Assembly: GCA_021324815.1 (NCBI GenBank)
Contig: JAJPIJ010000012.1
Location: 1 to 35,160, forward strand
Source of the DNA: Gammaproteobacteria bacterium
GTDB taxonomy: Bacteria; Pseudomonadota; Gammaproteobacteria; JAJPIJ01
Length of the DNA stretch: 35,160 nucleotides
Reading direction: 5' to 3'
In this document: positions 7,193 to 13,687 of the stretch, piece by piece
Numbering within the stretch: position 1 is the stretch's first letter
How the letters are laid out: every line of letters starts with the position of its first letter
Position numbers and translations under genes: made by a program
The notes under the pieces: model-generated
The model's input: the letters and a program-made list of their open reading frames with translations, nothing else
Told to the model about the DNA's origin: nothing
The model's database searches: none

Positions 7193-8146
7193 GTGCTGCT
7201 GGAGGTGGGTTCTGATTCCCTGCGTTTGATCTTTGCCGGCACCCCGGCGTTTGCCGCCATTTCTCTCGAGGCCCTCCTCGCCCAGGGCAGGCATGAAGTC
7301 GTTGCCGTATACGCCCGGCCCGACAGGCCGGCGGGACGCGGCCGGGCGGTGACCGCGGGCGCGGTCAAGCAACTCGCCTTGAAACACGGCCTGCCGGTGA
7401 GGCAGCCCGCGCGTTTGGACGAGGCCGAGGTGGCCGGGCTGGCGGCGTACAAGCCGGATGCGGTGATCGTGGCGGCTTATGGCTTGCTCCTGCCGCCGGC
7501 ACTGCTCGAGCTGCCGCGGCTGGGATGCATCAACATCCATGCCTCCCTGCTGCCGCGCTGGCGCGGCGCGGCGCCCATCGAACGCGCCATTCTGGCCGGC
7601 GACGTCGAAACCGGGGTCACGCTGATGCGCATGGTGCCGGCGCTGGACAGCGGTCCCATTCTGGCGCAGAGACGCTGCCTCATCGGCGAACAGGACACCG
7701 CCGGGGACCTGCACGACAAACTTGCGGCACTGGGTGCCGAACTGCTGCTGGAAAAACTGCCGGCCATCGCCGCCAGCGGCGTACAGGCGGCGCCACAGGA
7801 CGAGCGACTGGCCACTTACGCCAGAAAAATCATCAAAACCGAGGCGCGGCTGGACTGGCGGCGCCCCGCGGTGGAACTGGCGCGGGCAGCGCGCGCCTTC
7901 AATCCCAGGCCGGGCGCCACCGCGATTCTCGGCGGGCGCGAGATCAAAGTCCTGCGGGTGCATCCCGTCCGCGGCCCCGTCGCGGGACCGCCGGGAACGA
8001 TAATCCACGCCGGCCCGGAAGGCATTGACGTGCAGACCGGCGACGGGCTGCTTCGACTGCAGACGCTGCAGGCGCCGGGCCGGCGGCCGGTGACGGCCGC
8101 GGATTATTTGAACGCCCATCCGGAACTGCGGCCCCCTCATGATTGA
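7193..8146 (+). CDS. fmt: Methionyl-tRNA formyltransferase
   Basis: Fmt transfers a formyl group from 10-formyl-tetrahydrofolate to Met-tRNA(fMet) for translation initiation. The N-terminal formyltransferase domain contains LIFAGTPAFAA, the catalytic INIHAS segment, SLLPRWRGAAPIERAI and LDSGPIL; the C-terminal tRNA-binding domain follows (about 205-317). The start is uncertain. GTG at 7193 gives 317 residues. The family usually begins MRLIFAGTP, which would place the start at the CTG of 7220, and GGAGGT at 7201-7206 lies between these positions; GTG 7205 overlaps that site. The stop overlaps the rsmB start by 8 bases. Confidence 0.95.
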   Translation: MLLEVGSDSLRLIFAGTPAFAAISLEALLAQGRHEVVAVYARPDRPAGRGRAVTAGAVKQLALKHGLPVRQPARLDEAEVAGLAAYKPDAVIVAAYGLLLPPALLELPRLGCINIHASLLPRWRGAAPIERAILAGDVETGVTLMRMVPALDSGPILAQRRCLIGEQDTAGDLHDKLAALGAELLLEKLPAIAASGVQAAPQDERLATYARKIIKTEARLDWRRPAVELARAARAFNPRPGATAILGGREIKVLRVHPVRGPVAGPPGTIIHAGPEGIDVQTGDGLLRLQTLQAPGRRPVTAADYLNAHPELRPPHD

Positions 8147-9458
8147 GCGGCATGTCGCGGCGCGGGCGCGCGCCGCGGCGGCGCGCGCCGTCGCGGCGGT
8201 CATGCACCGGGGCCGATCGCTGAGCCGGACGCTGCCCGTGGCGCTGCGAACGGTGCCCGGACCGCGGCCGCGCGCCCTGGCGCAGGAACTGGCTTATGGG
8301 ACGTTGCGATATGCGCACCAGCTCCAGTTCGTCGCCCAACGCCTGCTGCAACATCCGCTGAAGGAACGGGACGCGGACATCGAAGCCCTGTTGCTCATCG
8401 GCCTTTATCAATTGCGCATCCTGCAAACACCGGCGCACGTCGCCGTGACCTCCACCGTGGAGGCCTGCCGCGCGCTGCGCAAGGAATGGGCCTGCGGACT
8501 TGTGAATGCTGTGCTCCGCGCCCACGATCGCGACCGCGCGGCGCATGACCAGGCGGTGGCTGCGTCAGCCGCCGCCCGCCACAGCCATCCCGACTGGCTG
8601 ATCGAACGGCTGCAGGCGGCCTGGCCGCGACAATGGCGGGAGATCCTCGACGCCAACAATGCGCGCCCGCCGCTCTGCCTGCGCGTGAATCTGCTGCGAG
8701 GCACACGCGAGGATTACCAGGCCGAGCTGTCGCGGCACCACATTGCCTCCCGCGCCGGCCGGCATGCGCCCGCGGCGCTGTACCTGGAACAAGCCATGGA
8801 CGTCGCCGCGCTGCCCGGCTTCGACGCGGGCCGCTGTTCGGCGCAGGACGAGGCCGCCCAATTGGCGGCCGTGCTGCTGGACCTGCGGCCCGGCCACCGG
8901 GTGCTGGACGCCTGCGCGGCGCCGGGCGGCAAGACCACGCACATCCTGGAGAGCGAGCCGCGGCTGGGGCAATTGCTCGCCATCGACACCGACGCCGCCC
9001 GACTGCGACGGCTGCGCGACAATCTGCGGCGCCTGCGACTCAGCTGCGACGTGCGCGTGGCGGACGCCGGCCGGCCGCGGGAGTGGTGGGACGGGCGGGC
9101 GCTCGATCGCATCCTGCTTGATGCGCCCTGCTCGGCCACCGGCGTCATCCGCCGCCATCCCGACATCAAATTGTTGCGCCGGCCCACGGATGTCCCGGCG
9201 TTGGTCGAAAAGCAACGGCAATTACTGCAGGCCCTGTGGCCGTTGCTGGCGCGCGGAGGTAAGCTGTTGTATGCCACCTGTTCAATCCTGCCCGATGAGA
9301 ACCAGATGCAAATCCGGGAGTTCCTGGCCCATCACCGCGATGCGCGGGTGGAGGAGCGGCCGGCGTCATGGGGCGTTGCCGCCGATCCCGGCCGCCAGAT
9401 CCTGCCCGGCGATGATCAGATGGATGGATTTTACTATGCCCTGCTGGCCAAGACCTGA
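8139..9458 (+). CDS. rsmB: 16S rRNA (cytosine967-C5)-methyltransferase
   Basis: RsmB methylates C967 of 16S rRNA using S-adenosylmethionine. The 439-residue product has an N-terminal NusB-like RNA-binding domain (about 1-140) and a C-terminal Rossmann methyltransferase domain. Visible motifs are the SAM-binding DACAAPGGKT (257-266), DAPCSATGV (from 328, Cys331) and YATCS (378-382, Cys381); the two Cys are the paired residues of m5C methyltransferases. Its ATG overlaps the fmt stop by 8 bases, so fmt and rsmB are translationally coupled. The start is well placed, although the N-terminus is unusually rich in Ala and Arg. Confidence 0.96.
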   Translation: MIERHVAARARAAAARAVAAVMHRGRSLSRTLPVALRTVPGPRPRALAQELAYGTLRYAHQLQFVAQRLLQHPLKERDADIEALLLIGLYQLRILQTPAHVAVTSTVEACRALRKEWACGLVNAVLRAHDRDRAAHDQAVAASAAARHSHPDWLIERLQAAWPRQWREILDANNARPPLCLRVNLLRGTREDYQAELSRHHIASRAGRHAPAALYLEQAMDVAALPGFDAGRCSAQDEAAQLAAVLLDLRPGHRVLDACAAPGGKTTHILESEPRLGQLLAIDTDAARLRRLRDNLRRLRLSCDVRVADAGRPREWWDGRALDRILLDAPCSATGVIRRHPDIKLLRRPTDVPALVEKQRQLLQALWPLLARGGKLLYATCSILPDENQMQIREFLAHHRDARVEERPASWGVAADPGRQILPGDDQMDGFYYALLAKT

Positions 9459-10038
9459 CGGCGCCGGACACCCGGCCTTGAGAGCGGTGGCCATGCTGTG
9501 CCTGCTGCTGGCCGCCCAGATCGCCTCGCCGGCTCATGCCATCGCCGAACCCGGCATCGTCATAGAATCGGCCAGCGCACGCATCGAGCACGACATTTAT
9601 CTGGTCGATGCCCGGCTGCATTACGAGTTGAGCGACGAGGCGCGCCAGGCGCTGGAAAGCGGCATACCGCTCACCTTCGCCGTCGAGGTCGAACTCCTCA
9701 GGCAGCGGCCGTATCTGTGGGACGCCGTGGTCGCCGACAGCCGGCACTGGCTGCGCCTGGAATATCACGCCTTGAGCCGCAGCTACCTGGTCAGCAACCT
9801 CACCATCAAAACCCGCCACAGCTTCCCGCAGTTGCGCGAGGCCCTGGAGGCGCTCGGCACCATTCGCGACATGGCGGTGGTGGAGCGCAAGCTGCTGGAC
9901 GCCGATACGCCTTATCAGGCCCGCCTGAGCGCGCGGCTGGACATCGAATCCCTGCCGGCGCCGTTGCGGCCGGCGGCGTATTTTGAGAGCGCCTGGCGGA
10001 TCAAGTCACCCCCCTATCGCTGGACGCTCACCCCGTGA
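9436..10038 (+). CDS. DUF4390 family exported protein
   Basis: A 200-residue protein of the DUF4390 family. It has an N-terminal signal peptide (hydrophobic LCLLLAAQ segment ending SPAHA) and a beta-rich body typical of the family, including LTFAVEVELLRQRPYLWD and the C-terminal YFESAWRIKSPPYRWTL. The function of the family is unknown. It is usually encoded, as here, between rsmB and an NtrY-like kinase, so a periplasmic role connected with that sensor is a guess from context. The ATG at 9436 overlaps rsmB by 23 bases; TTG 9478, GTG 9487 or ATG 9493 would give a shorter signal peptide and are possible. Its stop overlaps the GTG of the kinase gene (GTGA). Confidence 0.85.
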   Translation: MPCWPRPDGAGHPALRAVAMLCLLLAAQIASPAHAIAEPGIVIESASARIEHDIYLVDARLHYELSDEARQALESGIPLTFAVEVELLRQRPYLWDAVVADSRHWLRLEYHALSRSYLVSNLTIKTRHSFPQLREALEALGTIRDMAVVERKLLDADTPYQARLSARLDIESLPAPLRPAAYFESAWRIKSPPYRWTLTP

Positions 10039-12302
10039 AGCCGCGCACGCGCCTGCTGCTGGCCATTGCCCTCCTTGGCTCGCTGCTGCTCGGTTCGCTC
10101 ATGATGATGAGCGACGCCCTGCAGAATTCCGAGCGGTTCGGCAGCATCTATTCGCTGCTCCTGGTGGTGAACACGGCGGGCCTGCTGTTCTTCGCCGTCA
10201 TCATCGGCGTCAACATCCGCCGTCTGTGGCGCGAATTGGCCGCCGCCGCCCCCGGGGCGCGGCTGAAACGGCGCATGACCCTGATGTTCGCCGGCGTCGC
10301 CGTGCCGCCGCTGTTGATCGTCTATGGCTTCTCGGTCGACGTCGTCCGGCGCGGCATCGACAACTGGTTCGACGTGAACATAGAGGAGGCCCTGAGCAAT
10401 GCGCTCGACCTGAGCCGCGCCTCCCTGGATTTGCGCATGCGCGAGCTGCTGAAGCAGACCCAGCAGCTGGCGGAGAGCCTCTACCAGCCCGCGCGCGGCA
10501 GCGTGCGCCTGAATTTCGAGGACCTGGATCTGCCGGACAACACCATCGTGGTCAACGAACCCCCCCCGGTGCCGGCCGTGGATCTGGATGAACTGCGGCA
10601 CACCAGCGGCGCCGAGGAGCTGACGCTGCTGACCGCCAAGGGCGCGGTCGTGGCCAGCACGGAGCTTTCGCCCACCCTGCCGTCGGAGACGGTGCTGCTG
10701 CAACTGCGCCAGAAGGAAAATTACATCGGGCTCGACCCTGTGCGCGACGATCGCCTCAGCATCCGCATCGTGGTCAACGTGCCGGGAGTGGGGATTGGCA
10801 GCGACGCGCGCATCCTGCAGGCCCTGTATCCGGTCGCCGGGCGCATGACGGCGATGGCCGGCAAGGCGGAACAGGCGTTCGTGAAATACAAAGAGCTGGC
10901 GTACTTGCGAACGCAATTGAAGATCGGATTCATCCTCACGCTCACGCTGGTGCTGCTGTTCAGCCTTCTGGGCGCGGTGTGGCTGGCGTTCTACTCGGCG
11001 GAAAATCTGGCGGCGCCGATCCGCGATCTGGTGCAGGGCACGCGCGCGGTCGCCACCGGTGATTACGGAACCATTTTGCCGGTGGACCGCCGCGATGACA
11101 TGGGTGTGCTGGTGGAATCGTTCAACGAGATGACCCGGCGCCTGGCCGCGGCGCGCGACGAGGCGAGGGAGTCGCGCGCGGAAGTCGAGGCCCAGCGGCT
11201 CTATCTCGAAGCGGTGGTGGGGCGGCTGTCCACGGGGGTGCTGACCATCGACTCCGGCCTCCAGGTGCGCACCGCCAATGCCGCCGCCGCGCACATCCTG
11301 GGCGTGCCGGGGACGCGGCCCGGCGGCGGTTCGCTTGAAGACCTGGGTCGGCAGCTGCCGCATACCGGCCCATTCGTGGACAGCCTGCTGCGCCACCTGC
11401 ACGCCGGCGATCGCGAATGGCAGGAGCAGATAACGTTGTTCGGGCTGTCCGGCCGCCAGTTGCTGATGTGCCGGGGCGCGCTGTTGACGGCGGCGCACGA
11501 GCACGGTGGCCACGTCATCGTCTTCGATGACGTCACCGCGCTGGTGCAGGGCCAGCGAGATGCCGCCTGGAGCGAGGTGGCGCGGCGGCTGGCGCACGAG
11601 ATCAAAAATCCGCTGACGCCCATCCAGCTCGCCGCCGAGAGGCTGCGGCTGAAATACCTGCGCACCCTGCCCGCCGCGGAGACGGAAACGCTGGAGCGGC
11701 TGACCACCACCATCATCCAGCAGGTGGAGACGATGAAGGGCATGGTGAACACCTTCTCGGATTACGCCCGCAATCCCACCGCCGACCACGAGCCGATCAA
11801 TTTGAACCGGCTGATCGATGAAGTGCTGGATTTGTACCGCAGCGACGACCCGCGGATGACGCTCGCGGCCGAGCTGGCCTCCGATCTGCCCCCGGTGCAC
11901 GCCGACCCCAACCGCCTGCGCCAGGTGATGAACAACCTCATCAGCAACGCCATCGAGGCCCAAGCGGATCAGCCGCGGTGCCGGATCAAGGTCGCCACGC
12001 GTCTGTTGCGGGAGGCCGACACCGCGGCCGTTGAACTGCGGATCATGGATCGCGGGCCCGGCATAGCGCCGGAGATGCTGTCGCAGGTGTTCGAGCCTTA
12101 CGTCAGCAGCAAACCCAAGGGCACCGGTCTTGGTCTGCCGATCGTCAAAAAGATCATCGAGGAGCACGGCGGCAGGGTGTGGGTGGAGAACAATCCCGAC
12201 GGCGGCGCGACGGCCGTCATCCGCCTGCCGGTTTCCGTTCCGGCCGCGCTCCGGCCCGCCACGTCTCCGGCGGCCGGCAGCGCCAGGAGCAACGCCGCGT
12301 GA
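10035..12302 (+). CDS. ntrY: NtrY-like membrane sensor histidine kinase
   Basis: A 755-residue sensor kinase. Transmembrane segments lie at about 6-26, 40-60, 84-101 and 295-319, with an extracytoplasmic region of about 190 residues before the last one. Then come a HAMP domain (about 318-372), a PAS-like domain (about 385-500), HisKA with the phospho-acceptor His521 in RLAHEIKNPLTP, and a HATPase domain with N box NNLISNAIEA (633-642), DRGPGIAPEM and GTGLGLPIVKK. All kinase motifs are intact. The start is a GTG that overlaps the upstream stop by four bases, and the stop in turn overlaps the response-regulator GTG by four bases. NtrY-type kinases have been linked to nitrogen, redox or envelope sensing; the signal here is unknown. 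Confidence 0.93.
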   Translation: MKPRTRLLLAIALLGSLLLGSLMMMSDALQNSERFGSIYSLLLVVNTAGLLFFAVIIGVNIRRLWRELAAAAPGARLKRRMTLMFAGVAVPPLLIVYGFSVDVVRRGIDNWFDVNIEEALSNALDLSRASLDLRMRELLKQTQQLAESLYQPARGSVRLNFEDLDLPDNTIVVNEPPPVPAVDLDELRHTSGAEELTLLTAKGAVVASTELSPTLPSETVLLQLRQKENYIGLDPVRDDRLSIRIVVNVPGVGIGSDARILQALYPVAGRMTAMAGKAEQAFVKYKELAYLRTQLKIGFILTLTLVLLFSLLGAVWLAFYSAENLAAPIRDLVQGTRAVATGDYGTILPVDRRDDMGVLVESFNEMTRRLAAARDEARESRAEVEAQRLYLEAVVGRLSTGVLTIDSGLQVRTANAAAAHILGVPGTRPGGGSLEDLGRQLPHTGPFVDSLLRHLHAGDREWQEQITLFGLSGRQLLMCRGALLTAAHEHGGHVIVFDDVTALVQGQRDAAWSEVARRLAHEIKNPLTPIQLAAERLRLKYLRTLPAAETETLERLTTTIIQQVETMKGMVNTFSDYARNPTADHEPINLNRLIDEVLDLYRSDDPRMTLAAELASDLPPVHADPNRLRQVMNNLISNAIEAQADQPRCRIKVATRLLREADTAAVELRIMDRGPGIAPEMLSQVFEPYVSSKPKGTGLGLPIVKKIIEEHGGRVWVENNPDGGATAVIRLPVSVPAALRPATSPAAGSARSNAA

Positions 12303-13687
12303 ACCGCCGGCACATTCTGGTGGTGGACGACGAGCCGGACATCCGCAACCTGCTCAAGGAATTCCTGGCCGACGAGGGCCATGAGGTGAGCCTGGCCGCC
12401 AGCGTCGCCGAGGCCCGCGCGGCGCGGCGTGATCACGCGCTCGATCTGATTCTGCTCGACATCTGGCTGCCCGACGGCGACGGCATTTCGCTGCTCAAGG
12501 AGTGGGCCGGCGCGGGCGGCCTCGACCCGCCGGTGATCATGATCTCCGGCCACGGCACCGTGGAGACCGCCGTCGAAGCGACCCGGCTCGGCGCCTACGA
12601 TTTCGTCGAGAAACCGCTGTCCTACGCCAAGCTCCAGGTCACCATGCAGCGCGCCTTGGAGGCGGCCTCGCTCAAGCGCGAAAACGTCGCCCTGCGCCGG
12701 CAGGCCGTGGTCAGCGAGCCGTTGGGTGACAGCCGAGTGATTACGCAACTCAAAACCAGCCTGCAACGGCTGGCGCAGCACAAGACCACCGTCTTCATGA
12801 CCGGCGAATCGGGCAGCGGCAAGGAGGTCTTCGCGCGTTACCTGCATGCGCACAGCCCGCGCGCCGAGGCGTCGTTCGTGGCCTTCAACATCGCCGCCGT
12901 GGCGGCGGAGGCGCTGGAGGAGGAACTGTTCGGGAGCGAGCGGAGCGGGCAAATCTTCACGGGCGCCATTGAGCGCGCCAATGGCGGAACGCTGTTCCTC
13001 AAGGATGTGGCCGATCTCGAACTTCCGCTGCAGGCGCGCCTGCTTGAGGTGCTGGAAAAACAGTCTTTGCTGCGCGCCAACGGCCGCGAGCCGGTGAAGC
13101 TCGACGTGCGGGTGATCGCCGCCAGCCGCCGCGATCTCAAGGAGGCCGTGACCCAGGGCCGCTTCCGCGATGACTTGTACTATCACCTCAACGTGGTGCC
13201 GGTCGCGGTGCCGCCGTTGCGCGAACACGGCGAGGACGTGCCGCTGCTGTTGTCCCATTACCTCGAGACAGCGGTGGCGCAGGAGGGCCTGTCCCCGCGC
13301 CGCTTTTCCGCCGGCGCCCTGCAGCGTCTGCGCAATTATGAATGGCCCGGCAATGTGCGCGAATTGCGCAACCTCGTCCAGCGGCTGCTCATCCTCGGGC
13401 AGAGCGAGATCATCGAGGCGCGCGAGGTCGATCGGGCTCTCGGGCTCCAAACCACCATGGCGCCGGAGGCGGCCGCCACAAACTATGACATCCCCTACCG
13501 GCAGGCGCGCGAGGAATTCGATCGCGCGTACCTGGAATACCAGCTGCAGCTGGAACACGGCAACGTCAGCCGCGTGGCCGAGAAGATCGGCCTCGAGCGC
13601 ACCCACCTGCACCGCAAGTTGAAGACGCTCGGCATCGACCCCAAGGCGAGCAAGGCCCCTCGCGCCGAGGGGGGCCGCGCGACGTGA
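12299..13687 (+). CDS. ntrX: NtrX-like response regulator with degenerate AAA+ domain
   Basis: A 462-residue partner of the upstream kinase (GTGA overlap). The receiver domain is intact: Asp10/Asp11, phospho-acceptor Asp54 in LLLDIWLP, Ser83 and Lys105. The central sigma54-type AAA+ domain has a good Walker A (GESGSGK, 169-175) but is degenerate elsewhere. The Walker B Asp-Glu pair is Lys235-Asp236 (TLFLKDVADL), the second Arg of the FRxDLxxRL segment is His296, and the stretch between ELFG and GGTLFL is 16 residues, about five shorter than I recall for NtrC, removing the normal GAFTGA surface loop (only IFTGA remains, displaced). A Fis-type helix-turn-helix is at about 422-446. It may act as a DNA-binding regulator without driving sigma54. 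Confidence 0.92.
   Translation: MNRRHILVVDDEPDIRNLLKEFLADEGHEVSLAASVAEARAARRDHALDLILLDIWLPDGDGISLLKEWAGAGGLDPPVIMISGHGTVETAVEATRLGAYDFVEKPLSYAKLQVTMQRALEAASLKRENVALRRQAVVSEPLGDSRVITQLKTSLQRLAQHKTTVFMTGESGSGKEVFARYLHAHSPRAEASFVAFNIAAVAAEALEEELFGSERSGQIFTGAIERANGGTLFLKDVADLELPLQARLLEVLEKQSLLRANGREPVKLDVRVIAASRRDLKEAVTQGRFRDDLYYHLNVVPVAVPPLREHGEDVPLLLSHYLETAVAQEGLSPRRFSAGALQRLRNYEWPGNVRELRNLVQRLLILGQSEIIEAREVDRALGLQTTMAPEAAATNYDIPYRQAREEFDRAYLEYQLQLEHGNVSRVAEKIGLERTHLHRKLKTLGIDPKASKAPRAEGGRAT

Follow-up and report, generated by a model that had tools for sequence, protein, structure and literature searches.

The window, the whole stretch of 35,160 nucleotides that was analysed, holds the gene order fmt-rsmB-DUF4390(plrP)-ntrY-ntrX. 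On the + strand, rsmB (8139..9458) opens the conserved rsmB-plrP-ntrY-ntrX cluster and is followed by the DUF4390 gene, the plrP homologue (9493..10038, with an inferred exact start; PF14334 match at 9553-10026, E 2.6e-48), which is found in 91 of 143 class genomes, and by the sensor kinase gene ntrY (10035..12302), whose product carries NtrY_N (PF19312), HAMP, PAS, HisKA with the motif LAHEIKNPLTP, and HATPase. Directly after this NtrY-type kinase gene lies ntrX (12299..13687), its GTG start overlapping the ntrY stop by 4 bases, which encodes a response regulator of 462 amino acids with a REC-AAA+-Fis HTH architecture. A GTGA overlap is present at both the plrP-ntrY and the ntrY-ntrX junction (window 9493-12302), suggesting translational coupling of plrP, ntrY and ntrX. 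The order rsmB-plrP(DUF4390)-ntrY-ntrX is shared with Bordetella PlrSR, for which PlrP is suggested to be a third component that acts on the kinase, and the rsmB-plrP-ntrYX arrangement has been extended to beta- and gammaproteobacteria, whereas alphaproteobacterial ntrYX generally adjoin ntrBC (PMC13001219).

The window protein falls below the NCBIfam NtrX cut-off (465.5 bits vs 600, NF051870), though this is its best family by far. In the tree, the alpha, gamma and beta NtrX lie apart from the other activators of the window genome; the best PDB match by sequence is an NtrX, and the nearest solved structure by both sequence and fold, over the full length, is that of Brucella abortus NtrX (PDB 5m7n, 5m7o, 5m7p). 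Given that lineage, synteny and structure all back NtrX, the protein is taken as a beta/gamma-type orthologue of NtrX that lies outside the NF051870 cut-off; its rsmB-plrP-ntrY-ntrX cluster is likewise of the beta/gamma type, with this protein as the response regulator.

Matches to PF00072, PF00158, PF25601 and PF02954 (Pfam) follow one another in the order REC, AAA+ and Fis HTH, and the AAA+ domain includes the lid. In the predicted structure the AAA+ core has a pLDDT of 92-96 over most of its length, while the model as a whole has a pTM of 0.57 and an unreliable domain-to-domain placement. The receiver, Walker A and Fis-type DNA-binding domain had been described as intact in the first-pass annotation, and this is borne out: the receiver has the phospho-acceptor D54 (12458..12460; all features of ntrX are on the + strand), found without exception in the sampled NtrX of alpha, gamma and beta type, and also keeps K105 (12611-12613), Walker A reads GESGSGKE including K175 (12803..12826), and the HTH_8 domain (PF02954, 13508..13624) retains near-invariant residues. 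The Walker A lysine K175 and the sensor II arginine R354 (13358..13360, in GNVREL) are present as in canonical sigma54 activators. Three features of such activators are missing, namely the GAFTGA loop L1, the Walker B Asp-Glu and the second finger arginine. Loop L1 (12935..12982), flanked by ELFG (12923-12934) and GGTLFL (12983-13000), is shortened to 16 residues, the length that had been given for it, against 21 in the canonical activators that this genome encodes; it lacks GAFTGA and is modelled as a short beta hairpin. In place of the Walker B Asp-Glu stands K235-D236 (13001..13006; K235 is AAG at 13001-13003 and D236 is GAT at 13004-13006), and the residue numbering previously assigned to this pair is exact with the GTG start at 12299. 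The first description, of an arginine-finger position holding His, gives the right residue number but needs one correction: the finger has two arginines, of which only the second is replaced, by H296 (13184..13186, CAC), turning YYRL into YYHL, and the first, R290 (13166..13168, in FRDDL), is kept.

sigma54 in the window genome

With 2.37 Mb at 98% completeness, the window genome carries a single rpoN and encodes eight other clear sigma54 activators, all of which have Asp-Glu (LFLDE), both arginines and a loop L1 of 21 residues with GAFTGA (GAFTSA in one). Given rpoN and eight canonical activators in the same genome, the loss of the motor residues is specific to NtrX. As far as sequence can tell, sigma54 is in use in this cell, and NtrX alone appears to have left the mechanism.

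It could be argued from the presence of rpoN, and from a window loop sequence (IFTGA) with a faint likeness to GAFTGA, that NtrX is still a sigma54 activator with a different loop. This is very improbable for two reasons: first, the loop is 5 residues short and reads IFAGA in the sister species and HFGA or HYGR in other relatives. Second, -24/-12-like sites in the window number 28 vs 51 expected, which is fewer than chance. NtrX-like palindromes in the window, for the one site form tried, are not above chance either. Among sampled cluster-bearing genomes, rpoN is present in 78 of 80; its absence was considered as proof of sigma54 independence and set aside, since only 2 of the 80 are without PF04552, which is too few and possibly due to assembly gaps. 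One 99%-complete genome without a PF04552 match, possibly through an assembly gap, still encodes an NtrX with an AAA+ domain.

Conservation and erosion of the NtrX motor

Comparison with relatives, which had been proposed as a check on the Lys-Asp pair, finds the same columns occupied by K-D and His in the NtrX of the sister species (90% identity) and of two sister-genus genomes (65% identity); the rest of the family shares them as well. At these columns synonymous codons differ among several relatives (AAG/AAA, GAC/GAT, CAC/CAT). That K-D and H recur in another genome of the genus, independent of the first, and in two of the sister genus, together with the differing codons, rules out a sequencing error and argues equally against chance. 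In the window clade, defined on a tree built without the columns in question (n=22 rows), Walker B is K-D in 19, N-D in 2 and Q-D in 1, so that the second position is Asp in 22/22. Constraining all K-D rows to one clade is not rejected (p-AU 0.81) and gives a higher likelihood; a single K-D clade is compatible with the data. Two separate K-D origins, suggested by the first large tree, were dropped, as a mixture model with fewer rows puts the K-D groups side by side. Among K-D pairs, the three closest have a dN/dS of 0.09-0.10 for the AAA+ core and 0.04-0.07 for REC; across NtrX domains it is 0.05-0.11, and it reaches 0.36 only in the 18-residue linker. Read from these alignments, K-D is an old state that is conserved in the window clade under purifying selection.

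With K-D and His common to relatives and an AAA+ core dN/dS of 0.09-0.10, decay is a poor description of the window ntrX. Several catalytic residues are gone, as they might be in a gene drifting towards a pseudogene, but the likelihood of such a drift is close to negligible given the full-length frame, the low dN/dS across domains, the cross-genus conservation of the whole protein, K-D and His included, and the gene order overlapping with ntrY. The first-pass view that this is not simple decay is upheld by the intact frame, the clade-wide K-D/His and the purifying selection.

Class frequencies were taken from 85 gamma NtrX sampled via the neighbouring DUF4390 gene, and thus independently of NtrX sequence. 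A first set of relatives, in which His is over-represented because one of the search peptides was FRDDLYYH, was not used for them; most public relatives are metagenome bins. Walker B in the 85 is DE in 24, KD in 12, DD in 9 and NE in 7, followed by a long tail, so that 61/85 have no DE, and the second arginine is absent in 63 and present in 22. Walker A has Lys or Arg in 83/85. All four catalytic residues are canonical in 11/85, some of which may therefore still hydrolyse ATP. In the comparison across groups, all four are found in 0/22 NtrX of the window clade and in 7/106 other gamma NtrX. The GAFTGA pattern has no match in any gamma NtrX sampled. The canonical activators have K, DE, R and R in 17/17 and the GAFTGA pattern in 16/17, the remaining one having a short loop, while the alpha NtrX have GAFTGA in 0/10, yet all four catalytic residues (K/DE/R/R) in 9/10. 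Throughout, receiver D54/K105 are retained in 178/178 NtrX of all groups, and the HTH residues are near-invariant. In NtrX-like regulators from bins of Rokubacteria, Bdellovibrionales and Syntrophobacterales, the GAFTGA-type loop, DE and the two arginines are all still present, and in the tree these proteins branch outside the GAFTGA-less NtrX group.

A further reduction of the domain is seen in 41 genomes from a single order, which their beta-type NtrX suggests to be Burkholderiales. In 31 of these probable Burkholderiales the NtrX bears an AAA+ domain, which is shortened and has an 11-residue loop; the Walker A Lys is gone in 30 of the 31, the first arginine is gone in all 31, and the second is present in 3. 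In the other 10 of the 41 the AAA+ domain is missing, leaving a protein of some 210-270 aa in which receiver and HTH are intact; this deletion requires several changes on the tree, which is weakly supported. Betaproteobacterial NtrX has been stated to be without an AAA+ domain (PMC13001219), and the window NtrX is unlike that description in that its AAA+ fold is complete, though catalytic residues in it are altered. Given that 31/41 keep a shortened domain, the published statement is true only for some.

A mixed-oligomer role, in which inactive NtrX subunits would enter the hexamers of other sigma54 activators and poison or tune them, might draw on the retained AAA+ fold, Walker A and R290 and on the eight canonical activators in the same cell. 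Such a role is highly unlikely, given that erosion in another lineage reaches full AAA+ deletion with receiver and HTH unchanged, which suggests that the DNA-binding role is the essential one.

In the sequences sampled, NtrX of alpha, beta and gamma type generally lack GAFTGA, and the second arginine and Walker B are each widely lost among gamma NtrX. To speak of a broken domain as a trait of this one gene, as was first done, is therefore misleading: the motif losses are widespread in NtrX, and K-D is old and conserved. We read the distribution as an ordered dismantling in which the loop would be lost first, then the hydrolysis residues, then nucleotide binding and finally the domain, an order taken from a tree with many open forks. 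On our reading the window NtrX would stand at the stage where the hydrolysis residues are gone and the nucleotide-binding residues are still there.

Mode of action and known counterparts

The reading preferred here, at a probability of roughly three in four, is that the window NtrX is a DNA-binding regulator controlled by phosphorylation and independent of sigma54, with an AAA+ domain that acts as a scaffold and may bind nucleotide; it is drawn from sequence and from analogy with characterised relatives. NtrY would phosphorylate D54, the phosphorylated NtrX dimer would bind target promoters via its Fis-type HTH, and the bound protein would activate or repress transcription by a sigma70-family holoenzyme. 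ATP hydrolysis for sigma54 remodelling would have been lost from the AAA+ domain with the disappearance of L1/GAFTGA, the change of the Mg2+/water-activating Asp-Glu to Lys-Asp and the change of the catalytic trans-arginine to His. The domain would be retained as a folded scaffold placing receiver and HTH; with Walker A, R290 and sensor II still present, it may also hold a nucleotide. Given that the loss of motor residues is a branch-wide conserved trait and not damage to one gene, NtrX is most likely an ordinary signal-controlled DNA-binding protein. The first-pass annotation had proposed phosphorylation-controlled DNA binding, perhaps ATP binding, and no sigma54 remodelling; this proposal is partly supported, in that it fits all the sequence evidence and the Brucella precedent.

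That precedent is the closest one. Brucella abortus NtrX is like the window NtrX in its REC-AAA+-Fis architecture, its partner NtrY and its lack of GAFTGA, and the titles of 5m7n, 5m7o and 5m7p (Fernandez et al. 2017, J Mol Biol 429:1192) give it as bound to ATP or ADP. It differs in that the alignment shows the Walker B Asp-Glu and the arginine finger kept, both of which are replaced in the window protein. In S. meliloti, NtrX requires D53 phosphorylation and binds CAAN2-5TTG (PMC9223101), and GAFTGA absence has been recorded for a gammaproteobacterial NtrX, that of Thioalkalivibrio (PMC5744179). The NtrC of Rhodobacter capsulatus and of Caulobacter, which are without GAFTGA, act at sigma70 promoters, as does Vibrio cholerae VpsR, another member of the activator family without GAFTGA (PMC10274813). 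These NtrC share with the window NtrX an enhancer-binding-protein architecture that has lost L1, but they are NtrC and not NtrX, and in the window protein Walker B is gone. VpsR (7v2b) is a fold match, likewise without GAFTGA, at an identity of only 25%, and differs in its atypical receiver and its c-di-GMP ligand. Among the papers searched, none was found to describe Walker B or arginine-finger losses in NtrX, nor did any give measurements of ATPase, DNA binding or transcription for an NtrX from gammaproteobacteria.

In the GAFTGA-less NtrC, the R. capsulatus protein requires ATP binding and the Caulobacter protein requires Walker A and B residues (PMC10274813). The latter requirement, the retention of Walker A, R290 and sensor II R354 in the window NtrX and the presence of D236 in 22/22 clade rows would be consistent with a residual or unorthodox ATPase, in which D236 or nearby acids bind the metal, R290 acts as the finger and slow hydrolysis powers a switch outside the sigma54 mechanism. 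We consider this unlikely, as the two acids of Walker B have changed together with the second arginine and the wider gamma set drifts at these positions to unrelated residues (GN, SE, NE, HD, YD). Moreover, Brucella abortus NtrX, in which the catalytic residues are all intact, is reportedly without measurable ATPase activity.

A minor and tentative possibility joins the lineage-wide ordered dismantling of the AAA+ domain to a particular role for Lys235, which may act as a built-in cation replacing Mg2+ at the phosphates, with the nucleotide locked in as a structural cofactor of a non-hydrolysing, possibly ATP/ADP-sensing, phosphorylation-controlled DNA-binding dimer. Were this true, a former motor would have been turned into such a dimer.

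The survey of sequences bears on annotation: the usual description of NtrX as a sigma54-dependent regulator is likely wrong across gammaproteobacteria and probably also betaproteobacteria. The natural series is graded, from motor intact through loop lost, hydrolysis residues lost and nucleotide site lost to domain deleted, and could serve to find out what role an AAA+ domain plays in a transcription factor after its motor activity has been lost. In Bordetella, persistence in the lower respiratory tract depends on PlrSR, which makes the mechanism of this type of regulator of general interest. At three loci carrying ntrY and the DUF4390 gene, where no receiver-domain protein was found after ntrY and either an orphan NtrY or a relocated ntrX is possible, the genes after ntrY include one for an outer-membrane barrel-like protein at one locus and one for a Na+/H+ exchanger with a TrkA domain at another.
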